Source: Limnanthes douglasii subsp. nivea
Lineage: Eukaryota; Streptophyta; Magnoliopsida; Brassicales; Limnanthaceae
Assembly: GCA_036936605.1 (NCBI GenBank)
Contig: JAUPFV010000001.1
Coordinates: 119,482,771-119,546,770, forward strand
Reading direction: 5' to 3'
Length of the DNA: 64,000 nt
The translations under genes were made by a program, and so were the position numbers. The stretch's first letter is position 1; every line of letters starts with the position of its first letter. Positions 3,001 through 18,692 of the stretch are shown in pieces. A model generated the notes under the pieces. It did not search any database and was not told where the DNA came from. It saw only the letters and a list, made by a program, of their open reading frames with translations.

Positions 3001-4421
3001 ATAACCTCGTGCTCTTTACTTGATTGTGTGTTTGCAAGTCCTTAAATTTCGAGTCATTGAGATCATATTTCTTTTCATTTTCAATGTAAGATATTGTACT
3101 TATAGTCCCCGTTGTTGGTTACAGAAAGCCGAATTGCGGTGTCTACTACCAAGAGGTTTGCTGGATTATGGATTTGATCCGTCTGGTAAGATGAATGATA
3201 AAAAGGATGCTGGCAAAACCAAAATAAATAAATCTAGCAACCTAAGTTGGTGTGGCCAGCGAAAGACACCTTCTTATATTGATAAGTTGGTTTTCCCGGA
3301 GAACTTTTTAGCTGCTCTGAGGACCATAGCAATGCAAGAAGAGGAGCTATTCAAGGTGTCATCGTTGCTTGAAGAGGTATGATTTACAGGTCTTTGGTGC
3401 GCGGCTTATACACCAAAATGTTGGCTTAAAAATAAGAAAAGTTAGTGTTTTTAGAAACAGTCATCAGTTGTTTGGTGCCTCGTTAAAAAACAAACTCAAA
3501 AGGTTAAAATGATGGTACAAAATGAAAGCGAGAAGTAAAATAAATTGAAAATGTGTATAAAGAAAAGCCAGTAAAAATATATTGAGAAAAAGGAAAGAAC
3601 TAAAAAAAGCCAAACACGCTAATTACCTTTTTAGATTTTTTATTGTATACATTCTCTTAGCTTAACAAGTCAGACCAAGCAGAAAACCTTCTTGCTTATA
3701 AACCTCGATTCCAAAGAAGTTGATGGCACCAAACAACAGCTCAATCTCTTTATCAATAAACTCCTCTCTCTCTCTCTCTCTCATCTTTCTGGTTTTTCAC
3801 TTTTGATGGTTCTTGAAGCTTGTAGGTACGGAGGGAGATAGACAACCATCAGAGTCAGAAGTTAGAGCAGCCGTATGGGAGGCGTGTGGGGATTCTGGAG
3901 CTCTGCAGTTGCTTATAGATCTTCTTCAAGTAAAGTGAGAATCTAAAAATCCAACATCAAGAAAAAGACTTACGTGGAAAACATTTGAAAAAATATATTA
4001 TCTCCTTTGTATGCAGGATGATAAATCTTAAAGAGAATTCAGGAACCGAGGATGATGATGCCAATCTGCTGCAGAAGTTCCAGACCACTGATAATATACC
4101 ACAGAACACGGCCGATAGGTATGGCAAAACAATTTTTTGCTGCTCTTATAAGTTTGAAGCTTAAATCGTTAAGGTTCTGTTTTGGTCTTTGAAAACTAGG
4201 AAGGGTGAAAAAAACCAGGTGAAGTTTCACTAGAATAATTTTTCTTAATAAGATTTTTGTTTTCCAGCATCAAAATCATGAAAAATATTGTGGCTCTGTT
4301 TCATTATTGTAGAATCAGGTGGTCTTGTATAGTGTATCGAAGAGGCCAAAAGGAATTGACCCGCTTATTCTTGAAGGAAGCAGATCAAGCCTTACAGTTA
4401 GCTCTAAGAGAAGGCAACTGA
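83..4421 (+). CDS. SET-domain protein lysine methyltransferase, Rubisco-LSMT/SETD3-like (5' part outside window)
   Basis: Predicted lysine N-methyltransferase of the plant Rubisco-LSMT-like SET family; the substrate cannot be told from sequence. I read 14 exons: 83-257, 525-630, 735-817, 1595-1621, 1746-1873, 2032-2142, 2269-2349, 2445-2509, 2689-2745, 2925-2996, 3125-3376, 3819-3934, 4017-4118, 4268-4421. They join in one frame for about 508 codons to a TGA. Family landmarks seen: VPLDLAITPMRVLQDP, LPTSFGNPLWFSDDEL, the SET motif GIDFCNH (exon 6), EKEISISYGNKGNEELLYLYG (exons 8-9, cofactor and catalytic Tyr region), then a helical substrate-binding part with NFLAALRTIAMQEEELFKVS and VYRRGQKELTRLF near the end. 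The N-terminal part of the SET domain lies before the window. The exon 5 donor (A|GTTGAT) and exon 6 acceptor are weak and chosen because they keep frame. No stop interrupts the model, so it looks functional. The family is clear; exact borders are less so. Confidence 0.85.
3764..3781 (+). repeat. (CT)9 microsatellite in SET gene intron
   Basis: A run of CT dinucleotides in the intron between exons 11 and 12, about 40 bases before the exon 12 acceptor. It may act as part of the polypyrimidine tract. Confidence 0.9.
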
Positions 4422-4658: not shown

Positions 4659-4667
4659 TTCATTATT
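4659..4667. repeat. MULE target site duplication, left
   Basis: TTCATTATT, identical to 18684-18692 just outside the right end. Nine bases is the usual MULE duplication length. Confidence 0.92.
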
Positions 4668-4800
4668 GAGAAAAGTACATGAAAATACCCACTCAACTAT
4701 CTTATTACCCGACAGTACCCAAATTTAACATAGTGTTACTTAATACCCAGACACTTAAAATTTAGACAAAAATACCCTTCCACTATATATACCCATTTTT
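4668..4800 (+). repeat. MULE terminal inverted repeat, left
   Basis: Pairs with the complement of 18520-18683. Conserved blocks: ACTCAACTAT near 4690, GTTACTTAATACCCA near 4735, and the TATA region near 4783. It is an imperfect, gapped TIR. Confidence 0.8.
4783..4791 (+). promoter_or_regulatory. TATA box in left TIR for the Ulp1-like gene
   Basis: CTATATATA directed into the element, about 750 bp before the protease start, with a leader that ends in an intron acceptor at 5537. The equivalent block in the right TIR also has a TATA box, which supports a TIR promoter as known for MuDR. Confidence 0.5.
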
Positions 4801-5370
4801 CAATTCCATCCCACCTTTTCAACCTTCCTATCACCCTAAACAAACGCAAAAGTCTAATTTTAGAAACCACCAGAAAACCGTTCGACTTCGTGATACTCTC
4901 TCTCTCTCAAACCCAAAAACCCTACAGCTTCTCACCGTTCGCACCTTCGACACTATCGCACCGATCAGTGTCTTTTACTCACTCAGACTACACACCTTCT
5001 GTTCGACAAAGTTGTCGTTGAGTCGTCTTTGAAAGTTCAATCTCGTTCTCCGACCGGTGAAATTTAACAGGTATGCATCATCGCCAAAAGTGTACTTTTT
5101 TTTGCGTTTTTGACGAATTTGAACCACTTTTTTCTGTTGATTCACGATAGGCGTTGCTTTTTATACTAGAATGAAGTATCTACTGACGATAGTTGCTCAG
5201 TTCATGGGTTTATCGTCGAAGGTAGGGTAGAATTTTAGTTGCATGTAATACTAATACTTTCCTGAGAAATATTATGTATGTTAGATCTGCATTAGGTAGT
5301 TCATTGTTGATTTTGGTGTTTGTTGAATAATTCCCAGATCCCTGCAACGTGCATGTAAAAAGTGTAACAG

Positions 5371-5500
5371 TTCGCATCCTGATCACCCATTATGCAAGCA
5401 ATTCGCAGCTCGATTGTCTGTAAATAATTCGCAACTCAAGCTGCGAATTGTCTGTTAAAACAATATTTATATGTATGCAATTCGCAGCTTGTGATGCGAA
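5371..5500. repeat. MULE dyad-motif cluster 1 (leader of protease gene)
   Basis: TTCGCAKC half sites at 5371 and 5402. Full 20-bp dyads at 5428-5447 (one mismatch) and 5481-5500. All lie upstream of the protease start in a probable leader intron. Confidence 0.85.
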
Positions 5501-6607
5501 TTATTTGTGACACTCCAACTGATTTGTGTTTGTGCAGAAAGTATGACAACAAAACCTAGCTACTACAGATCAAGGTTGGTGAGCCTTCTGAAGCTACTCA
5601 AAGACATGCGTATTACAAGGGCGCACATTGAAGCTGCAAGAAACACACCCTTCTACACACTTCTGAAAACAGCTTTCCAAATCCGTAATGAGGCAGAGTT
5701 GCCAAGGAAAAAATTCTACCAAATCATTCAGTATATCATCGAGCAATTCTCCGTGGATAGAGACACCTTTAGAATTGACAACAAGTATGTAAAGCTAACT
5801 GAGAACGATGTCAAGATCATATTCGGGTTGAGGCATGGCACTGAGAAAATTCCATTAACAAAAACCGGAGCTTTTCATAACAAGTATGCACCCGGCGAGG
5901 AGGACGAATCAAGGATGATGAAGAAATACTTCATGGGTAAAACTGGCAGGAAAGTAGCAGCTAGTAATACCAAAACAATAACAAATGCCATTATAAAGGT
6001 ACGTCTAAAATGGACTTCATCTTTATAAAGCAAGATTCTGTACATTTCTAACATAGCATGTTGTCGTTGGTTTTACAGGAGGGTATAGAGAAGGCCATAA
6101 ACGAAGGAAGGGAGCATGAGTTGAAAGATGTTGCGAGGCTGTTGATACTGTTTTTGTGCTCCACACTATTCTACTCCGTATCTGGAGATATCCTGGGCTG
6201 GAGCACGGTTTATTACGTTGAAGACCTCAACAGAATAAACAATTATGACTGGGCTGGATCAATACTGTACAAGCTTCGACAGTCTATCAGGAGTTGCTTA
6301 GCGATAGAAAGAGCTGATAAAGTCGTCGGCTGCGTTGCCCTTGTAGTTGTAAGATTGATCTATTCAATATAAAAATTAGTTATGTACATAGCATCGTGTT
6401 GATAAAACCTGTTCCCATACAGCCCTTCATCATGGAGCACACAACAATCGGCCACGAGGTAGCGAAGCCAACCTCGATACCAAGGTTTTTCAAATGGTTG
6501 GGGTTAGAGTGCCAAGCATCAACCATGACATATCTTCTTAGAACACCCTCGCTGGATAATGACCAGGTATAAGCTTTATATATGTATTGAACTGGGGGTG
6601 CATACAG

Positions 6608-6911
6608 TTCGCAGCATATCATTCGTTTTGCTTAGAAAAATGTATCAATCATTTCGCAGTCTGATATGAATTTTACTTCGCAGCTTCTTTTTCCACACAG
6701 TTCGCATCATATAGTTTTACACGTAGTTCGCAGCATATTGTCCCATATATAAATACTTAGTTCGCATCCTATGGTTTACATTTAGTTCGCAGCATATCTT
6801 TTGCACATAGTTCGCAGCATATTGTCCCATACACATTTCGCAGCTCAGCATGCGAATTCTTTGCAACTCTAACATGATTAAAATCACACATTTCGCATCA
6901 TATGATGCGAA
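6608..6911. repeat. MULE dyad-motif cluster 2 (intron 3 of protease gene)
   Basis: Half sites at 6608, 6677, 6701, 6727, 6761, 6786 and 6811 all face one way. Full dyads lie at 6837-6856 (one mismatch) and 6892-6911. They make up much of the 426-bp intron 6568-6993, while neighbouring introns without motifs are under 100 bp. Confidence 0.88.
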
Positions 6912-7855
6912 CTGTTTCTAAAAAACAATTTGTTTGTCTACACCCTCATACTTTCGAAACAATTAATTTACTTACATGTGCCTCTGTTGGTAGGTTTTAG
7001 AAGGTCCATTACAGCTTACCGAGGCTGAAATTGAAGCTTTCGGAGAACGAGAAGATAATGAAGATGCATAAACCTTTTCTACTTCAACGGAAGAAAGACC
7101 AAGGAAGAGGAAGAAAAGCACAACATCAAAACCAAAACAAAGGAGACGAGCATCACAGAATGCAATGAATAAGGTGATGTCTCCCAGACCCGAACAACCA
7201 CCACCACCCGAGCCAACGATTCCACCACCAAGACTCCCCAAGCAAACGATTCCACCACAACCGAAAGGAAAATCCAGGCAGGAGCCCTCCAGCGACGACA
7301 CAACCAGTATGAGTGAAACAATCGGTGATTATGTACTCAAACGCAGAGGTCCTAATCACGAGACATCAAAGCGTTTGAAGACATACGCCAACAAGAACAA
7401 GTACGAGAGAAAGATAGAAAAACAGGCTAGAGAAGTAAGTATGACTTGAACCTTACAATCAGCACTTAATATGTTTATAAAAAGTTTGCTAAATTTTTTG
7501 CAGCTGAAAGAATTGAAACGCAAGATTGCGAAACTTGAAGCACAACAACTCCACAATGCTATCTCTCAGCCAATTTTCCGGATTGAAAGCCCAATAGAGC
7601 AGGTACCAGCAGCACTTCCAGAGAGAGAAGAATCCACTGATCAGCAAGCATCCATGTCTAATGCTGATCAGCACCATGCTGATGGAGTACTGCCAGAAGA
7701 AAGGGACGATGATGCCAACCATTCACCCATACCCCTTCAAATATCTGCAGAGATGGACATCTTGGACACACAGATAGAGGAGGTAGATAATGTAAGTGGA
7801 TGATATGATGTTACCAAACAAATATCAGGACTCTTGTGTAGTCCTGTCCAAACGT

Positions 7856-7972
7856 TTCGCAGCTTAAGCTGCGAATTGTGTAATAAACCATTGGGTTGGT
7901 TATTACACAATTCGCATGCTGAGCTGCGAATTGTTAAGAATGTACAACACAGATATCAGGTCAGCATGCGAA
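7856..7972. repeat. MULE dyad-motif cluster 3 (intron 5 of protease gene)
   Basis: Full dyads at 7856-7875 (perfect palindrome with TTAA centre) and 7911-7930 (one mismatch), and a variant half site at 7965. All fall in the intron 7792-8045. Confidence 0.88.
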
Positions 7973-8057
7973 CCGTGCTCAACAATGATTAACTTATGCT
8001 TAACCCTTCCACCCTTTTGTTTTTTTGGATTTTTGTATGAAACAGGAGACCGAAAGA

Positions 8058-8435
8058 CAACAACAACAACAACAGCAGAAACAGCAAGACCAGCAGCAAC
8101 AACAAGAACAAAAACAGCAACAAGAACAACAGCAACAAGAACAACAGCAACAAGAAGAACAACAACAACACCAATAGCAACAACACCAACAGCAAGAACA
8201 AGAAGAAGAACAACAACAACATCAACAACAAGACCAAGAAGAACACCACCAGCAACAACAACACCAACAGCAACAACATCAACAACAAGAAGAACACCAC
8301 CAGCAACAACAACAAGAAGAACACCAGCAACAACACCAGCAGCCACAAGTTCAACACGAAGACCGGCAACAAGAAGAACAACAAGAACAACAACGAGAGC
8401 AACAAGGACAACAAGAACAACAACAGCAGCAACGG
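8058..8435 (+). repeat. CAA/CAG-rich low-complexity tract (glutamine-rich segment)
   Basis: Inside exon 6 of the protease gene. Codons are nearly all CAA, CAG, GAA and CAC/CAT, giving about 125 residues rich in Gln, Glu and His. One CAG-type codon has become TAG at 8175-8177. The reading frame continues on both sides, so it was coding before the stop arose. Confidence 0.85.
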
Positions 8436-8825
8436 ATAACCTTGGCGAATAGAGAAAGGCTAACTCAAGAGATAGCACCTCAAGAGTCAGAACCTCAAAG
8501 ACCAACGGTGCTGTCAGCAAAGTCAGAATTGCTAAGCCAACGTGAAACTGTAGGCCCGGTAACAAATCAACTGCAAGCTCCAGAGTCCCACGATAACACA
8601 ATAGGTTTACCCGATACTTTTGTTGATGGTATTTACACTCACGTTTCACAGACATTTTTAAATGAAATTGATAATGTATATTACGATTCTATAATACAAC
8701 GGTCTTTGGAGAACATGTCGGAGGATGACTTTAATGATTTCTGCCGACACGATCCAGTTCATATGCCGAACAAGTCAACGACATTGGTTGTCGCTGACCG
8801 TGCGGTAAGGCCTACTTATAATGAT

Positions 8826-8997
8826 TTCGCATCATAACATGAGATTTGTGTTAGAAAACTGATTGGGGTATTATAAATGAATATCAGGGTAGGATGCGAA
8901 CTGTTCAGTGGAACCTCGAACAGTTCGTATCCTACCCTCATAGATACTAATAAATTTATTAGACTGGAACCAAACAGTTCGCAGCCTAAGATGCGAA
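8826..8997. repeat. MULE dyad-motif cluster 4 with 20-bp-arm hairpin
   Basis: Half site at 8826, half site 8893 inside a long hairpin, and full dyad 8978-8997. The hairpin arms are 8887-8906 and 8918-8937, 20 bp each with one mismatch and an 11-base loop. All lie in intron 8805-9064. Confidence 0.88.
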
Positions 8998-9941
8998 CTG
9001 TTTGGAGTCGTTGCAATTATAATTACTGACGCCCTTCTACTTTTGATTTTTGTTATTTACTAAGCTCGAGCCTAGTAAAGAGATAGAGGAGCCAAGTTTT
9101 ACTCTGCTGACACAAACGCAGCCTCAAGTGGCAGAGGAAGAAGAAGAGTTCGTAATAACAATACAGGAACCGCCATCAGTAGAATACAGCGACTAGCCAA
9201 AGAAAACAAAAGTAACTGAACGTATCGATCTGCAAGAATACCACAAAATATAGGTAGTTAAAGCCTACGAGAGAGACACACCTGATCTAGTGGTATGGCA
9301 GCTACCAAAGTCCAAGTTTACATACGGAATCAGGGTGCAAGCGAGTGATGTCATGGCACTACCTTTAGAACTGGAGCTGGACGTAAAGGTATCCAATTGT
9401 CAACCAATTCTATTTTCAATGTTTCAAATATGTATTGTATATTTAACATAAATCTACAACTCCTTTGTTAGGTTATCGATGCTTGGATTCAAAAGATGCT
9501 TGAAGATGCAGACTTCAAAGTTCCATGCACTAAAGCTAAAGGAGAGCATCATGACGCCGTACTGATTTCGGGCATGACTGCGGTAAGTTTAGCTCAGGTA
9601 AATTGAACAAAGTTCTCAGAAAATGTTCTCATTTTAATATAATCTTGCTTGGATGCAACATCAAATGAAAGCAGGCTGGCAAGTAGAAAATTTGGCTGAC
9701 ATGGCTTTTAGAATGGGGCACAAAGATGCCAACATCATCATGGTTCCAGTATGCACCGAGATGAAGGACACTGTAAACCACTGGACGTTGCTCGTCATTG
9801 ACATCGACGCCAGGACAATTTCAAACTACAATCCGCTGCTGCCTAAGCTGAAAGCCATAGACCACACCACAAGGACACCTGCACTACTGGTAAATATTCC
9901 AAACTATACACTTAAATTTAAGGGATATTTTAAGTATGCAG

Positions 9942-10181
9942 GCTGCGAACTGTTATCGGGATATGCCGCGAATTGTGAGTAAATCAATTGCTTTTCCCAG
10001 CCTATCCATAACACAATTCGCAGCATATGATGCGAACAATGGGGTGCATATCAAATAATTCGCAGCTTAAGCTGCGAATCGTGTGACATGCCCATGTTGG
10101 ATTTGTTGTCATACAATTCGCAGCCTAAGGTGCGAATTATATTGGATTTGTTGTCATATAATTCGCAGCCTAAAGTGCGAA
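9942..10181. repeat. MULE dyad-motif cluster 5 (intron 9 of protease gene)
   Basis: Half site 9942. Full dyads at 10017-10036 and 10059-10078 (centre of a 22-bp perfect palindrome at 10058-10079). Dyads with one or two mismatches lie at 10117-10136 and 10162-10181; this last pair sits in a 45-bp tandem duplication. Confidence 0.9.
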
Positions 10182-10617
10182 TTGTATGTCACCAACTGTT
10201 TTTGTTTTTATGCTTATTCCTAACACTAATTATTATACACAGATCAAATATTTGTTGGATAGAGAATTCCTACCTAAATATACTACAGGGTGGAAGGTGA
10301 AAGTGGAAAGAGGCATCCCACAACAAAAGTGAGGCACCCTGGACTGTGGTATCTTTGTCTGCAAATATGCAAGAGACATTATCGAGCATGGATCAGTGCA
10401 GAAAAAATAAGATGCAGATATGGTAACTGCCTTCAGAGCAGAAATGTTTTATTAATTTTTAAATGACAAAGACCGCATCGCATATGGCTGATTCGTGTAT
10501 TGCTTGTAAATACATCTCTTGCTTGTAAATACATCTGTTGTAATTTTTAGTTTTGTTGTGCATACATAAAAGAATTAAATTTTTAGAAATTTGAATATTC
10601 CTTAGCTGATATGTATG

Positions 10618-10842
10618 AACAGTTCGCAGCCTACCCTGGTAGATGCTTATTTATCGTTAAGTAATCCGCAGCCTAATTTATCATCCAATAGTTCGCAGCC
10701 TGACCTGATAGATGCTTATTTATCATTAAATAATTCGCATCCCAATTTATCATCAAATAGTTCGCAGCCTAACCTGATAGATGCTTATCACTACACAAAA
10801 CAGTTCGCAGCCTGGTATACCACTTTACAATCAGTTCGCAGC
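10618..10842. repeat. MULE motif cluster 6, 69-bp tandem repeats
   Basis: Half sites at 10623, 10692 and 10761 are exactly 69 bp apart, in a tandem repeat that also shares GATGCTTAT. Further half sites lie at 10734, 10804 and 10835. This is the spacer between the protease gene and the small ORF. An ORF that reads through here is a by-product of the repeat. Confidence 0.85.
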
Positions 10843-11106
10843 CTGGTGCAGAAATAAAAAATTCAAAATATAAAGTACAAGGATACGAACAGGCTGTGGC
10901 TTATGCCTTGGTAAAAGTTTTCTTCATTGAGCATACAAAAAACAATCTAATCAAGTACATAATTCATTAAATGCTGATTGGACATGAAGGCTATGTAATG
11001 ATTACCTCATTTCCCTACAAATACCTCTAGTAACCAGAGGCTAATTTTACACCAAACTCCATATTTTTTTAAAAACACCTCTTCTCTCTTCGAAAGGCAA
11101 ACGATC

Positions 11107-11605
11107 ATGTCTTTTTCCACCACCACAACCACTACCTCATACTCAAACTCTGGTTCACTCGGTTCTCTGGGTGACTCCTGGTCATCCATAACCGTTAACT
11201 GGAGTGATGAGTTGATCATGCCAGCAGTACCACCCCCAGCCCAGTCTCTGTCTTCGAACTAGACATGTATGATAACTACTACTCTGCTGACTCTCAACCA
11301 GTGGAAGTTGTTCCACTGGTTGCTGCTGAAACTCAGCCAGAACAGGTTCCAATGCTTCCTGCTGCACCTCAGCCAGAACAGGTGCAACCTCAAACGGCAG
11401 AGGTTCGAAACAACAAAAGGAAGAGGGAAGACGAAGCTGGTCCATCAAGGAAATTTTTTTAAGCATGATGGACATAGATATTGAAGCTGAAGAGAAAGTG
11501 GAAGAGAAAGAGAAAGTGGAAGAGAAAGAGGAGAAAGACAAAGATGATCAGCAGAAAGAGGAGAAACATGAAAAATATGGTGATGAATCCTCTACCAACT
11601 GCTAG
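11107..11605 (+). pseudogene. Small MULE-encoded acidic protein ORF, frameshifted
   Basis: I do not recognise the family. Three frames follow each other: 11107-11262 (Ser/Thr-rich start, SYSNSGSLGSLGDSWSS), 11265-11462 (Gln/Pro/Val-rich, repeated QPEQV, then the basic NLS-like NNKRKRE), and 11465-11605 (Glu/Lys-rich acidic tail of about 46 residues ending in TAG). The second shift lies at a run of seven T's, where a change of run length would restore frame. Taken together they suggest one protein of about 160 residues. It lies between the protease gene and the transposase 3' end, is transcribed with the protease gene, and has motif clusters on both sides. No zinc finger or other DNA-binding fold is visible. 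It could be a remnant of a third MULE gene; chance coding is possible. Confidence 0.45.
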
Positions 11606-11756
11606 AGTTGGTTTTTGTTTTTTGTTTTTTTGGAATGCAACTAACTAGCACCAGTAGCTTGTAGTGATATGTGTAAACAGTTGTTAGTGCATGAAAATAT
11701 TGTAATCCTCTTTTTTGTAATCTAATTTGTTTACAGAGTTTCAATGATATAAACGA

Positions 11757-12091
11757 TTCGCATCAAATACATTTTGCACATCATTCGCATGTTAACCTGC
11801 TATATTACTTATTTTCAACCTTATTGAATATCCTGGTATTGTTATTAAAGCACAATTCGCAGCTTATCATATGGCCAATATCAGGACTTCTAATTGTTCA
11901 TCATTCGCATCATAATTCTGGCCATAATTCGCAGCATATCATGCGAAACGTTTGATATAATAAATGTTTGATATGATTTTACTAGCGATTCACATCCTGG
12001 TGAAATTTCACATAAAAACGCATGTAATCCTGATAGATGTTTGCAACAATATACCAACATATTGTACATAATTCGCAACACAGGATGCGAA
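11757..12091. repeat. MULE dyad-motif cluster 7 (between small ORF and transposase 3' end)
   Basis: Half sites at 11757, 11856 and 11904, a variant at 11784, and full dyads with one mismatch at 11928-11947 and 12072-12091. This is the spacer between the two converging genes. Confidence 0.85.
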
Positions 12092-12537
12092 ATGCTTACA
12101 ACTCCAATAATAGCAATACAAAAACACAGGAATGTATAAATGTTTAGTTTGCTGTACAGAACAATAACTGTACTACAAAAATAAATGTGATATGGCCAAC
12201 CAGAATTGTCCTTAAACTAGAACATCACAAGTCCTCCGGTTATGGCCTGATTTCGAACATCGGCCACACCTCAACTTCTTGGTTGAGATTTCTCCTCTAG
12301 AAGGGATTCGTTTTTTCTTAGGCCTTCCGGAGCGTCTCTTAACGTTCGGAGGCAGAACTTCAACAAAAGAAGGATCGTTAGCGCTGGACCGTTCGCCGAA
12401 ATCAGTTATAGCTGGTATACTGAAAGAGTAACTTTCCCTGTAATTCTTAACTGTAAAGAAGGGTTCTATTACAGTCAATGGATCTTGGTCGGTGTATTGT
12501 AATGCCGCTAGAGCATGAGAACATGGAAAACACTCTT

Positions 12538-12545
12538 GTTGCCAT
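12538..12545. repeat. Target duplication of the hAT-Tip100-like element, left
   Basis: GTTGCCAT, repeated at 14017-14024. Removing the element and one copy restores the transposase frame exactly. Confidence 0.9.
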
Positions 12546-14016
12546 CAGTGGCGTAGCCAGGATCGAAACACAGTGGTGTCCTAGATCTTTTGATTATTAT
12601 CAAATAAATTAAAATAAGATACAAAAGTTATAGCAAAATGAAATCTCAAATATTAAGTTTTTATTGTTATAATATACGTTACACAAGTAACTAAAATGTG
12701 ATTAAAAAAACTAAAATACAAACATAAATTTAAGTTAACTTTACTTGTATTTTTCTCTTATTCATAGTTTAAAAATGTTGAAGGGTAGTTATGTTACTAA
12801 TCGTGCCACAAATATTACCAAACAATCATTAAGTTATGTATCGCTCATTTTATTTTTCAACTCCTTCTTCACATAATTCAAACCCGAGAAAACTCGCCCA
12901 ACACTCGTCGTTGCTACAGGTAAAAGCAAAGCCAACAATGAACAAAATTATTATGTTTAATATATTCTAAGTAACTTCGATATAAGGATATTTCTCCTTA
13001 CGAGGTTGTGTTATACCCCTTAAAAGGTAAGCTCTTCTTACCGAATCTTGAATATATGGATGAAAGCTAGAGATTCGATCTTTTTTCCCTGAACCAGCCT
13101 CCAAATGTTCCCAATTTGAAGATTGTGCTTCAACTTGAGGTTGTGGATTATTGACCACCGAAACATGTGCTTTTAGAATAACAAGTTAATCTTGTGTCCC
13201 TCTGCGGTTAACTTCACTGATTAAATTAAAGATATTTGTATTTTCTTTTCTAAATTTACTTGTTTCGAAATAGCAATGCATCCTATAGTGACAAACATAA
13301 AAACTAAATCAATAATAAAATTTGAACTTAGCAAAGCAAAATAAAAATTATGATTTATGGAGGTCTATTTGCTTTGAAATTTAACTGTACGACTCTCTAT
13401 CTTAAGAAAAAAATATAAATCAACCAATGTTAATCTTTGTAACTAGTGAATAGTAATATAAGACATGTAGCAAAGCTTAAATTTTGAGAATTTATAACAT
13501 AGAAACACAATAAATACCTTAGTGTTTGAAGCTTATAGTTAGAGTTGTCTAATTGATAGTAAAAGAGAAATTGGTGTAAAAAATTATATCTTATAGTTAG
13601 AATTTTCTATATAATATATAATAAAAATTTATACCAAATTCATATATAAATTTATATTACTTAATTTATTAGTATTTTATATATAATAAAAAATAAATGA
13701 TATATTTACATTAAAATAATAAAAAATATTAATTTGATATATAGTTAGGATTTTCTATATAATATATTACTTAATTTATATCAAATTCATATATAAATTT
13801 ATATTACTTAATTTATTAGAAATCTAACATAATTTAAAAAAACACATCAACCAATAGCCAGGTCTCGAACCCAGGATCAGTGGTCAGTGGGTTCCTGACC
13901 TGGCTTTTTGCCAACTCGCCAAAGGTAAAATACAGAATTGTATTACTAAAACTATGATTTAATGGAATCAGGTGGGTTCCTGGGACCCCACAGGCACCCA
14001 CCTGGCTCCGCCTGTG
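12546..14016. mobile_element. Non-autonomous hAT (Tip100-like) element inside the transposase gene
   Basis: 1,471 bp. The ends are CAGTGGCGTAGCCAGG and, on the other strand, CACAGGCGGAGCCAGG, like the CAGGGGCGGAGC termini of Tip100-type hAT elements. The 8-bp target duplication GTTGCCAT lies at 12538-12545 and 14017-14024. No transposase is visible; the inside is AT-rich, with short near-repeats of ATATAAATTTATATTACTTA at 13640 and 13790. A diverged, shortened copy lies at 26490-27050 in reverse. Confidence 0.9.
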
Positions 14017-14024
14017 GTTGCCAT
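14017..14024. repeat. Target duplication of the hAT-Tip100-like element, right
   Basis: GTTGCCAT, identical to 12538-12545. Confidence 0.9.
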
Positions 14025-14796
14025 GATCCGCATGAACATTTGAAATCCAACAGATTAACAGCAGCCACAGGATTCGAAAAGACTTCGAACATGGCGGAAG
14101 AGGACTTACGTACTACCCAAGTTCGGCACATGTCAACATTCTGCTTTAGCTTCTTCTCGTACTCGGGAACCAAATTAGTACTCCAGCTGAGACCTTCTTC
14201 GTATCTCCGTGAAACTTGAGTCATAAGCAAGACTTTAATCCAATCAATAAACTCAACAATTGGTAAGCCGCAATATTTTTTAATCTGACTGTTAAACGAT
14301 TCAGCTGCAGTAGAAGCCATAGATCCGTATCGCTTCCCTTTTACGTAAGCCTGCGCATACTTTTCAGGGGGTAAATTTGCAAGAAAATCACTCATTCTCT
14401 CATCACCTTCACATAGAAAACTCGTTAGTATATCTTTAAAAAGCTCTTGACTGGGAGCATAAGCAAGACGATGGAAGAAACTCAACATCCTTTTTTTATA
14501 CTCCCTGTTAGTATGTTCCAGTTTGGCTTTCAAATTCTGCATGAGATGAAAATAACAGTACGCATGATAGCAGTTTGGATACAAGACAGAAACAGCATTA
14601 ACAATACCAGAATGACGGTCTGAAATAAATGTGATCTGGCGATCCAGCAAATGTGGTTTCAAACACCCCAAAAACCACATCCAATTGTCCCAATCTTCAA
14701 TGCTAACTATACCAACAGCAACAGGGAATAGTCCTGGAAAAAGGCAGATCAAATGAACACTACAACAGTATGCAAACGTATAAAAAATGTAAAAAA

Positions 14797-15010
14797 TTCG
14801 CATGCTGTCCTGGCACAATTCGCAGCTTTCCATGCGAATTATGTGTGACATTTTTATTGCTCATACGAATAATTCGCATCTTGTCATGCGAATTGTTTGT
14901 AACTCAAGCTGCGATGTAAGTACAGTTTACTCAGATAATACCTAATTCACAGCCTCAAATGCGAAATGTGAGGATCACAACACTGCTTAATTCGCATCAC
15001 CTGATGCGAA
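14797..15010. repeat. MULE dyad-motif cluster 8 (transposase intron)
   Basis: Variant half site 14797. Dyads at 14819-14838, 14873-14892, 14946-14965 and 14991-15010, the last without mismatch in its arms. All fall between the two transposase exons (14734-15070). Confidence 0.88.
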
Positions 15011-16304
15011 TTGCATCCGTATTTTCACACAAAAAACATCGTTCAGATTAACTAGATAAATGTAACTAATCGTTGTTTCCGTCCTTTGCTACAACAGTGA
15101 GCAATGTACCCTTGTACTTTCCATATAAGTGGGTTCCATCGACAAACAACATTGGACGGCATGAATGAAAACCCCGAAGGGACAAACCGAATGCTACAAA
15201 ACAACGTTTGAATCGGTTTCCAGCTGACAACTCCAACTGGCAGTCTGAAGTAATATCCCGGCTCTTCAAGCGTTTGAAGTATCCGCTTAGTAAACTAAAA
15301 GAACTTGAACTATCTCCAAAAATTCCCCTCCTAGCCTTCTCTAAAGCATTCCATGACAAACGATAAGAGATGTCAAGACCGTAATCTTGTTTGACAGTCG
15401 ATTGTATGGTTTTGGCTGTCAACAAATGGCAGGTCCGGAGAGAATCCTGAATTTCCTCTGCAATCAAATCTGATGTCAAATGCCTGTGCCGCTTATGCTT
15501 ATGCTTCTGGGAGAAAACAGGACTGCAAGTATGGTACGAGACATACTTCTTGATCGTCATAAGGCCGGTGCTTGAGTCAATAGATGCATAAACCCTCCAT
15601 TTGCACCCGCTTGTGAGCTTCTTTTCACAATAAGCAGTGATCTTATTTGTTGTGTTGTGCAGGTATTTGAAAGAAAAACCATGCTCTAACGCAAACTTGC
15701 ATAAAGATACCCTCAGACCGGCAGCACCTTCTTCAAAAGCTTGACCCACTTCTGTAATAGCATCAGCCCAACCAGCAGTAACAAGTTGTTTTTTCCTCTG
15801 ATCAGAATTAACTAAACCATTACTACTCTCCCCGCTAACTAGTTGATCAAGAGATGGTTCTCCCAAAATCAAGCTACGCTCTTTACGCTTTACACCACAA
15901 TCCTTACCACCAAAGCTCTTATCAACATGACTTTTATTACCAGAACCCTTATCGAAGACGTGTTGTTCTATGAGAAAACTAACCCGTTTTAAATGCTCCA
16001 AATCAAGATATAACACCAACCCAACAAAATCATTCTGGTTATTAAAGAAACAATTATTGTGATCCCCGCAGGAGTAAGTAATTAGGTAGTCACCTGTGGC
16101 AAGCTCCTCCCATGTGTTCTCTACATAAGCTTGGATACTTTCGAAGCTTTCAAACTCCGTGAAAGGCACAATTGCAGTTTGGTGACCATATTTAAAAATA
16201 CAAACTCGTGATTTAGACATCTCTTACCCTGGACAGTACAAGTTATTTGTTATTAGTCACAAAAACTATGTGCAAATTATTTACTACTGCATCAAACAAT
16301 TCGC

Positions 16305-16312
16305 ATCCTATA
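16305..16312. repeat. Target duplication of hAT-like element, left
   Basis: ATCCTATA, repeated at 17656-17663. Confidence 0.88.
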
Positions 16313-16479
16313 TAGAGCTGTCAATTTTGGACACGACCTGTAAACCCAACACGAACACGACCCGAAATTTTAGGGTTAGAGACCCGATATTTCAGACCCG
16401 ATGAAATTAAGACACGACACGAACCCGACTCGAAAAAAAACGGGTCGGGTTCGGGTTGGGTTCGTGTCACCCGAAACTG

Positions 16480-16640
16480 ACCTGTAAAACCCGAAAAGAC
16501 CTGTAAACCCGAAACTGGACCTGTAAAACCCGAAAAGACCTGTAAACCCGAAACTGACCTGTAAAACCCGAAAAGACCCGTAAACCCGAAAAGACAGGTG
16601 AAACCCGAAAAGACATGTAAACCCGAAACAGACATGTCAA
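16480..16640. repeat. Short tandem repeats of GACCTGTAAACCCGAAA type
   Basis: About eight imperfect units of 17-19 bp in the left part of the hAT-like element. An ORF on the minus strand here (GLQVFSGFTG repeats) is a by-product of the repeat. Confidence 0.8.
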
Positions 16641-17272
16641 ACCCAAAAAACATGTACACTAGTGAAATAAAATACTGAAAACACTTAATAAAATAATATT
16701 ATTTTAAAATTTTGACTTATAAATTAGAATACCAAAAATACTTATAAAACTTTATTAATAATTTTATTTTTGATTTAAAATATATAAAATAAATAATATA
16801 CTTAAATAAGTATATGAGGGAGGATAAATGATGGTTTTGCTATAAAGTTTTGAATTTTATTCTTCTTTCACGTATATTAATAAAGTTTTGAATCTTTCAT
16901 CTTCTGTGTATATAGATTATAATATTAAGAATACAAAATGGAAATAATTTATTATTTAACAGTTTTTTTATAGTTTGCTAGATTTATTAATAGATATTGA
17001 ATGCATTCAATCTTGTTTTGTGGGATAAATCGATTTACAATTCTAGTGGTTATTTGATAAGAAGTGACAACTTAGTGGTTATTTGATATTTTCTGAAATT
17101 TATTTAATTTATCTCATTTTTTTTTTCATGTTTAGATGAGATGGCAAACCCATCATCACCATATATTTTACGGTAAGATAACTTCACCGGTGATAGTAAA
17201 AGCCGGTGTAAATATATGAAGTAAGCGTATCTTGACTTTATATAAATATAGTGGACCAATAAAATTTCAAAA

Positions 17273-17345
17273 GGGGATGTAGCTCAAATGGTAGAGCGTC
17301 CACTTTGCATACGGGAGGTATAGGGTTCGATCCCTTGCATCTACA
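17273..17345 (+). tRNA. tRNA-Ala(TGC)-like gene, probably a pseudogene
   Basis: 73 bases starting GGGGATGTAGCTCAAATGGT (A box region) and with GGGTTCGATCCC as B box. The anticodon loop is TTTGCAT, giving TGC. This matches plant tRNA-Ala(TGC) closely in overall sequence. Two pairs in the anticodon stem (A-C, C-A) and one in the acceptor stem (G-A) are mismatched, so it is likely degenerate. A TTTT run follows at about 17354, usable as a Pol III stop. It lies in the AT-rich core of the hAT-like element. Confidence 0.75.
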
Positions 17346-17369
17346 TTTATTAAGTTTTGTCTTTTCCCA

Positions 17370-17530
17370 AAATTCGTGTCAAACAGGTCGGGTTCGTGTC
17401 AGACGGGTGTTTCGTGTTTGATACAATTTCGTGTCAAACAGGTCGGGTTCGTGTGAGACAGGTGTTTCGTGTTGGATACAATTTCGTGTCAAACAGGTCG
17501 GGTTCGGGTCCAACAGGTTTTTAACAGGTC
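17370..17530. repeat. About 55-bp tandem repeats in hAT-like element
   Basis: About 2.5 units, each with TTCGTGTCAAACAGGTCGGG followed by GGTGTTTCGTGTT. They form the inner part of the right arm of the element. Confidence 0.75.
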
Positions 17531-17655
17531 GGGTTCGGGTCTTTGAACCTGACACGAATTTCGGGTTCGGGTCGGGTTCGTGTCACAGGTTCTAAAATTT
17601 CGGGTTGGTCAAACCCGACACGAACACGACCCGAAACCCGAAATTGACAGCCCTA

Positions 17656-17663
17656 ATCCTATA
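17656..17663. repeat. Target duplication of hAT-like element, right
   Basis: ATCCTATA, identical to 16305-16312. Confidence 0.88.
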
Positions 17664-17984
17664 TTGCGAATTGTGTATACCTACAACGAGCTATTCGCAT
17701 CTTGTCCTGATATTTGTAGGTAAACAAGTCCTGATATTTGTTATTAGTCACAAAAACTATGTTGTTAAATTATTTACTACTGCATCAAATAATTCGCATC
17801 CTAACTTGCGAATTGTGTATACCTACAACGAGCTATTCGCATCTTGTCCTGATATTTGTAGGTAAAAAAAGTCATGATATTTGTTATTAGTCACAAAAAC
17901 TATATGCAAATTATTTACTACTGCATCAAACAATTCGCATCCTATCTTGCGAATTGTTTATACCTACATAAAGCTATTCGCATC
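17664..17984. repeat. MULE dyad-motif cluster 9, about 141-bp tandem repeats (transposase leader)
   Basis: Half sites at 17694, 17836 and 17977, and dyads at 17793-17812 and 17934-17953, repeat with a period of about 141 bp. The first unit begins at about 16230 and its dyad is split by the hAT-like element at 16313. The unit carries GTTATTAGTCACAAAAACTA. Confidence 0.85.
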
Positions 17985-18519
17985 TTGTCTCCTGATATTT
18001 ATTTCGAAATACAATAATCTAATTGACCTAAAAACTCGTAATCTACACATTCAAGACAAAACTAAATCACTACCAAATTAGAATATAACATCAGACAACA
18101 AGGACATAACTATATAACGAACAATATTAACTAAAAAATAACAGATCACTATAACAAAAAAAAAACAGAGAAAAGCTCGAAATCAGGCAATGGCATCTAA
18201 AAACAGTAGAATAGAACCTATTCCAACACAGAAAACCAATAAAAAACTTCGAAATCGGTAGGTAATTACCTAAAAAGCTCGCAACACAATTACTTGTAAG
18301 CTATACGATTCCAAAAAGCGACGATCAACTCCTGTACGTATAAAACAGAGGTTAGACAGGTCTAACACAACCTACATAAAGAAACAAACCTTTAGCAGCT
18401 TCCGTTCATTGGAAAATGTGATTTCAACCGGTCTCGTGGTGGTTGGTAGGGTTAGGTGGTTAGAGCAGCTAACAAATTCAAATCTTCAAAAAGCTATAAA
18501 AAATAGAAAGAAAACAGAA
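17985..18519 (-). other. Leader region of the transposase gene
   Basis: AT-rich DNA between the right TIR and the motif repeats. It should hold the 5' UTR of the transposase transcript. No conserved ORF is visible. Confidence 0.4.
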
Positions 18520-18683
18520 AATTATGTTTATATAGTGGGTTAAGGGTAGTTAGGGTATTAAATTAATATTAGGTTGTAAGTGACAATAAGGTAGTTGAGT
18601 TGGGTATTAAGTAACAATTGATCAAACCTTGGGTGGTAAGTGACAATTGAATAGTTGAGTGTGTACTTTAAGTACAATTTCCC
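18520..18683 (-). repeat. MULE terminal inverted repeat, right
   Basis: Complement of the left TIR with small indels. It contains its own internal near-repeat: a block with AGTTGAGT and GGTAAGTGACAAT occurs twice between 18570 and 18660. Confidence 0.8.
18527..18536 (-). promoter_or_regulatory. TATA box in right TIR for the transposase gene
   Basis: On the minus strand this reads ACTATATAAA, at the place matching the left TIR's TATA box. It points toward the transposase start at 16220. The long leader between holds motif repeats and a nested hAT element and probably contains at least one intron. Confidence 0.5.
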
Positions 18684-18692
18684 TTCATTATT
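18684..18692. repeat. MULE target site duplication, right
   Basis: TTCATTATT, identical to 4659-4667. It marks the right outer border of the element. Confidence 0.92.

Follow-up and report, generated by a model that had tools for sequence, protein, structure and literature searches.

Accessory proteins with anti-silencing activity have been shown in two Mutator-like elements (MULEs) of Arabidopsis, namely VANC21 of VANDAL21 and VANC6 of VANDAL6 (Hosaka et al. 2017; PMC5735166). The portion of that report covered here describes many copies of a short motif in the intronic, intergenic, and terminal non-coding DNA of these elements; the motif lies partly in tandem repeats and differs between related families, and the transposase is more conserved than the accessory protein. 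RNA-directed DNA methylation targets the same non-coding regions of VANDALs, according to the covered part of another report (PMC10398659). In some VANDALs, the VANC gene has a Ulp1 domain and is called KIU (2026 review, covered in part; PMC13317346). Here, we analyzed a 64,000-base stretch (the window) of the 1.78-Gb genome of Limnanthes douglasii subsp. nivea, which contains a MULE with a comparable layout built on the 8-mer TTCGCAKC. In the sequence we observed a dyad of this motif that is conserved, confined to non-coding DNA, and shared by related and by non-autonomous copies; a sister family has a different half-site, CTCTCAGG. Judging from these features and from the likeness to VANC, we consider it rather probable that the array consists of paired binding sites, to which a protein of the element, most likely the product of its gene 1, would bind as a dimer and act against silencing. 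The pattern suggests element-specific tags, each recognized by a protein that the same element encodes.

Distribution and architecture of the motif

An exact count on both strands of the window gave 50 TTCGCAKC sites spanning 5371-17984, and all of them lie in the MULE. No exact match was present in the remaining 50.0 kb or in the two inserts nested in the element. The expected count in the element was 0.48 under a first-order and 0.79 under a second-order Markov model, and 6.0 under a third-order model trained on the element with the motif included. The initial annotation had counted about 50 exact copies, expected less than one by chance, and noticed nothing but near matches outside the element, all of which agrees with these counts (53 one-mismatch sites in the 50 kb outside). 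Its figure of about 15 one-mismatch sites was too low, as the element contains 29. The confinement to non-coding DNA was also confirmed: none of the 50 sites touches a coding base, with exons placed by eye. The five gene 1 introns of 69-88 bp have no site, and introns of at least 256 bp have 3-10 each. The element and its sites are as follows.

4668-18683 (4659..18692 including the duplication), whole Mutator-like element, with a 9-bp target-site duplication, TTCATTATT, at 4659-4667 and 18684-18692
5371..5500, 5 TTCGCAKC sites, intron in the gene 1 5' leader
6608..6911, 10 TTCGCAKC sites, gene 1 intron 3
7856..7930, 3 TTCGCAKC sites, gene 1 intron 5
8826..8997, 4 TTCGCAKC sites, gene 1 intron 6
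9942..10169, 7 TTCGCAKC sites, gene 1 intron 9
10623..10842, 6 TTCGCAKC sites, interval between gene 1 and gene 2
11757..12091, 5 TTCGCAKC sites, interval between gene 2 and the transposase gene
14819..15010, 4 TTCGCAKC sites, transposase intron 1
16300..17984, 6 TTCGCAKC sites, upstream of the transposase: one at 16300 and five from 17694 on, with a nested insert between

The unit of the array is a dyad composed of a half-site, 4 bp, and a reversed half-site, with the consensus ACAR-TTCGCAKC-NNNN-GMTGCGAA-YTGT. Over the 50 window sites, information content begins about 7 bases ahead of the core and reaches about 25 bases past the core start; 12 bases on, the core reappears as its reverse complement. 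At this offset, a reverse partner matching in at least 7 of 8 bases was found for 22 of the 50 sites (exact for 14), compared with at most 3 of 50 at any other offset from 8 to 59. With a threshold of at least 5 of 8, partners were found for 26 of 50 sites at offset 12 and for 29 of 1,100 at control offsets. The site had been called palindromic; the 8-mer itself is not, and the palindrome arises from the two half-sites with their 4-bp spacer.

K varies independently in the two half-sites of a dyad. Among 19 distinct exact dyads in ten copies, the K/K pairs were G/T in 8, T/T in 6, and G/G in 5. This independence is consistent with half-sites that would be read separately in duplex DNA and does not fit a hairpin. 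The dyads could otherwise be hairpins in RNA or single-stranded DNA, acting as a source of small RNA or as a splicing signal, or tiny palindromic insertions. Perfect dyads could indeed fold, and the sites are mostly intronic. However, the unlike K bases in 8 of the 19 distinct dyads would break the stem, and site orientation does not track transcription: the gene 1 region (plus strand) has 25 plus and 10 minus sites, and the transposase region (minus strand) has 9 plus and 1 minus. We assign a very small probability to hairpins or palindromic insertions.

Conservation and spread of the motif

As the initial annotation had anticipated, related MULE copies carry the motif. All eight other long copies (A and L024-L030) have 38-52 TTCGCAKC sites each, and a decayed ninth copy (B) keeps 20. 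Seven of the long copies were chosen through the dyads that mark them and are not a random draw from the family. The window copy, A, and L024-L030 were aligned, and B was excluded as too decayed. In this nine-copy alignment, coding columns hold 1 of 401 sites. The nine copies contain 404 exact sites, compared with at most 26 for any one-base neighbor except TTCGCAKG (73). Within the family (A and L025 compared with the window), the transposase is 96-97% identical and gene 1 is 83-95% identical.

A direct comparison of the window copy with A, in which 36 of 50 sites were kept and 39% of other non-coding 8-mers were identical, is biased because the sites were chosen in the window. It was replaced by a three-copy test, in which sites were picked in one copy and differences were counted between two others; the copies are related, and the comparisons are thus not independent. 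T0, T1, C4, and A5 of the core differed in.033,.030,.046, and.017 of comparisons, and C2, G3, and C7 in.098,.101, and.101. The K base differed in.228, mostly as G/T. Other non-coding bases differed in.079 (A and T),.129-.135 (C and G), and.127 (CG). Four of the seven fixed core bases are consequently 2.4-4.6 times less variable than other non-coding bases.

A neutral origin of the array, as a by-product of tandem duplication, would account for the 14 of 50 window sites that lie within arrays detected by Tandem Repeats Finder. By contrast, the other 36 lie outside arrays (counted by hand), and the core is less variable than other non-coding bases even with sites chosen in a third copy. Base sharing also falls near zero more than about ten bases upstream of the core, though the sites were picked as exact matches. 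Among the explanations weighed here, we regard neutral duplication as the least probable.

The motif also occurs in small elements. The non-autonomous element L015 measures about 1.1 kb; its ends are 75-82% like the MULE ends, and its array contains 12 copies of TTCGCATC in 40-50-bp repeats. In L014, a sibling element that is 81% alike over 574 columns uses CTCTCAGG as the core of its repeats, with the frame unchanged. Arrays of TTCGCATC were also found in L013, the second part of L014, and L018. Shared stretches, 72-78% alike, connect L013 and L014 to L015 or to the first part of L014, and L018 is linked only by way of L013 and L014. Because small non-autonomous and unlike elements carry arrays, TTCGCAKC is not private to one MULE. 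At L014:124-376, the terminal stretch of the small element is present as two tandem 126-bp copies, together with the CTCTCAGG-type array. The small elements in L013, L014:2480-3300, and L018:7300-8720 have 26-bp-type arrays of TTCGCATCTATCA without a dyad partner.

Genome-wide, TTCGCAKC occurs 134,945 times (66,578 + 68,367), and the reversed pattern, used as the control for these counts, 26,487 times (13,289 + 13,198). Exact TTCGCAKC dyads were found at 4,391 places (control, 1), and the general frame ACAANTCNCA-N8-TGNGANTTGT at 9,798 (control, 0); in the listed general-frame matches, dyads of TTCGCA, CTCTCA, TTCTCA, and TTCACA occur beside mixed ones. The first 100 forward TTCGCAKC sites of the listing all come from near the start of contig 1. 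Five clusters account for 74 of them, corresponding to two MULE copies (A and B), L015 with its related ends, and the other small elements of L013 and L014. The remaining 26 are singles or pairs, compared with about 18 expected from the control. Of the 10 sites found in eight stretches at round contig 1 coordinates (80 kb in all), 9 belong to L018. The "outside" set of 119,984 bases, from which L018 was excluded since it bears an array, contains 1 exact site. Genome-wide, the motif is thus in excess over its control, and the restriction to this MULE family that had been put forward as a check does not hold, since small unlike elements share the motif. With 134,945 genomic sites and arrays in such elements, the statement that the MULE owns its motif was too strong.

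A sister family and the candidate reader

A long copy of a sister family (L032 with L031, 5' part missing) contains 27 CTCTCAGG and 6 TTCGCAKC sites in 10 kb. Of the CTCTCAGG sites, 24 have a partner of at least 5 of 8 at offset 12, compared with 5 of 594 at control offsets. A second copy (L033, transposase end only) likewise has CTCTCAGG dyads, and genome-wide these occur at 426 places (control, 0), in the same frame as the TTCGCAKC dyad. The two clearest keys, TTCGCAGC/TTCGCATC and CTCTCAGG, differ by as few as three of eight bases. In the transposase intron, where one window copy was compared with two sister copies, dyads of both families occupy corresponding places, and the sister-family sites still resemble TCGCAGC. 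A tandem array at C1:9093163-9093485, with steps of about 49 bp, contains mixed dyads (TTCTCATG with CTCTCAGG) and is possibly an intermediate between the keys. The sister half-site has AGTTGT as its outer bases, and the VANC6 motif begins with the same six, which is only a lead.

The transposase pieces of the long sister copy (L032 with L031) are 72-84% identical in protein to those of the window. At the DNA level, exons of the sister copy are 85-87% identical in the transposase and 68-82% in gene 1 where aligned. Co-variation of motif and protein, which had been put forward as a check, holds in that the motif and gene 1 of the sister family both changed more than the transposase; gene 1 could be aligned in part only. 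With the change of key, gene 1 diverged more than the transposase, which makes it the best candidate for the reader.

The transposase itself could instead bind the dyads as internal sites, either for transposition or to regulate itself; the TnpA sites of maize Spm are a precedent. A DNA-binding domain is part of the transposase, and non-autonomous copies retain both the ends and the array. However, 703 bp and 699 bp separate the element ends from the nearest sites, and the half-site changed in the sister family despite the 85-87% identity of the transposase exons. We consider transposase sites unlikely. A host factor bound to the dyads could also drive or insulate transcription of the element. 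The location of sites in long introns and leaders would be consistent with this, and palindromic sites suit many host dimers. On the other hand, singles and pairs among the first 100 listed sites numbered 26, compared with about 18 expected from the control, and a common factor is no simple fit for two related families of the same genome that share a frame yet differ in half-site. Binding by a host factor appears highly improbable.

We return to the product of gene 1 as the putative reader. The genes and nested inserts of the element are as follows.

5543..10420, plus strand, gene 1, about 10 coding exons (by eye) encoding an N-terminal domain, a coiled coil, a Q-rich stretch, and a Ulp1/C48-type domain
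11108..11604, plus strand, gene 2, small acidic protein, frame-shifted in the window and open in copies A, L025, L026, and L030
12190..16220, minus strand, transposase gene (MULE, DBD_Tnp_Mut, and SWIM domains); in the window copy, a nested insert splits it
12546..14016, nested insert 1, with an 8-bp duplication, GTTGCCAT; a motif-free natural control
16313..17655, nested insert 2, with an 8-bp duplication, ATCCTATA; a motif-free natural control lying inside a motif dyad

The Ulp1 domain attributed to this MULE was verified, as the C-terminal domain of gene 1 matches Pfam Peptidase_C48 (E 8.4e-14); the coiled-coil stretch has coiled-coil-type profile matches. In all nine copies, the Ulp1-type domain reads NYN (window 9671-9889 and the same exon elsewhere), with Asn at what we take to be the catalytic Asp position. 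It may therefore lack protease activity. The N-terminal part of gene 1 has the lowest ratio of nonsynonymous to synonymous substitution (dN/dS), 0.39 compared with 0.50-1.14 in the other valid-frame rows. The Ulp1 region and the transposase C-terminus were excluded because their rows were partly in a wrong frame, and the gene 1 middle, which includes frame-shifted copies, was not relied on. A Plant mobile domain in gene 1 was far below the Pfam cut-off (E 0.11 and 0.027), and in a protein search with the N-terminus, no candidate among 807 reached E 0.001. An AlphaFold2 model of exon 1 alone was poor (mean predicted local distance difference test score, pLDDT, 44.5), and no fold search was based on it.

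The transposase matches the Pfam MULE domain (E 1.9e-17), in addition to DBD_Tnp_Mut and SWIM; a PF10551 search, in which 150 of 16,741 candidates were scored, was not used for a clade test. Terminal inverted repeats of VANDALs are degenerate or absent, with no defined threshold of weakness. Those of the present element appear degenerate: over 60-100 columns from the start of their alignment, its left and right ends are 63-67% identical. Elements of the Mutator superfamily generate 9-bp target-site duplications, and copy A also has one, TTTTTTAAA, at both ends (read by eye). The insert at 12546-14016 splits the transposase exon after the SWIM start. The insert at 16313-17655 has ends of TAGAGCTGTC and its near complement, and a tRNA-like stretch near 17275-17350 was noted by eye; ARAGORN in bacterial mode listed none in the window. 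With stops in gene 1, a frame shift in gene 2, and a split transposase, the window copy appears to be inactive.

In the mechanism we propose, the gene 1 product, with its N-terminal domain, coiled coil, and Ulp1-type domain, would bind the dyads as a dimer, also in trans, and the coiled coil could pair the two subunits. By likeness to VANC, which binds its motif and causes methylation loss, binding would demethylate copies that have the matching half-site and release them from silencing, and would leave sister families silenced. A joint change of half-site and gene 1 would keep each system specific. The reader is probably a fast-evolving protein of the element, the Ulp1-fused gene 1 product. 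The self-recognition system first proposed is retained as regards a conserved, non-coding array in related copies, and not as regards exclusivity to the MULE; protein binding is what we infer from sequence.

Several observations weigh against this mechanism. About half of the window sites (24 of 50) have no partner of 5 of 8 or better, and in the TTCGCATC arrays of L013, the second part of L014, and L018, a dyad partner of at least 5 of 8 was found at 0 of 20 sites. For C2, G3, and C7, variability is below that of other non-coding bases by a factor of just about 1.3. In the sister gene 1, exon 1 is absent, exon 2 is aligned over 22 of 264 bases, and exon 9 is unaligned; since exon 1 and most of exon 2 are missing from the comparison, the candidate reading domain is hardly compared between the families. 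Gene 1 of the window copy is interrupted by stops. Moreover, DUF1985, the accessory domain of VANDALs, and DUF287 gave no Pfam match in gene 1 at E up to 1 or 10.

For a broader interpretation, we see the chances as evenly balanced. The fixed dyad frame ACAAnTCnCA-N8-TGnGAnTTGT may act as a lock that was re-keyed at dozens of dispersed sites when the families split, with turnover of gene 1 and conservation of the transposase. Non-autonomous elements with the matching key would ride along, and the steps of the switch would be preserved in one genome. If so, two related keys and their intermediates would allow a protein and dozens of scattered sites to be studied as they change together. The geometry of two half-sites with a 4-bp spacer would point to a dimeric reader, whose specificity would be easy to test.

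Comparison with known systems

TnpA of maize Spm/En binds many short motifs of its element and can reverse promoter methylation. An element protein acting on many short element motifs is the feature shared with the present proposal. However, Spm/En is a CACTA element with subterminal sites, whereas the sites of the MULE start about 700 bp inside the ends and do not cluster beside them.

The element has a Mutator-type transposase, a 9-bp duplication, a Ulp1 domain as in KIU, and a family motif in non-coding DNA, all of which are found in VANDALs. We do not file it as a VANDAL, because DUF1985 and DUF287, expected of a VANC-type accessory protein, were undetected in gene 1. The initial annotation described a VANDAL-like layout with a different, CpG-containing motif. 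The layout is indeed alike, and the motif differs: the VANDAL motifs, YAGTATTAY and AGTTGTCC or AGTTGTAC, lack CpG, unlike TTCGCAKC; the likeness does not extend to DUF1985. The present motif forms a dyad, which the covered descriptions of VANDAL21 and VANDAL6 do not mention (PMC5735166).

A literature search with the motif letters gave no paper on this kind of element as judged by title and abstract, and we do not claim that the motif is unpublished. A VANC system bearing Ulp1 is not new as such, since KIU has already been described in the covered part of the review (PMC13317346). KIU resembles gene 1 as a Ulp1-domain accessory gene in a MULE that is said to act on the motifs of its own group (PMC13317346), whereas the Ulp1-type domain of the present family has Asn at the presumed catalytic Asp. 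Neither a fixed dyad nor a half-site switch in a kept frame is described in the parts of the VANDAL and KIU literature covered here. By analogy, the element may work like the VANDAL and KIU systems. If it does, the sequence-specific anti-silencing logic of Arabidopsis VANDALs would be kept at a large scale in a 1.78-Gb plant genome.

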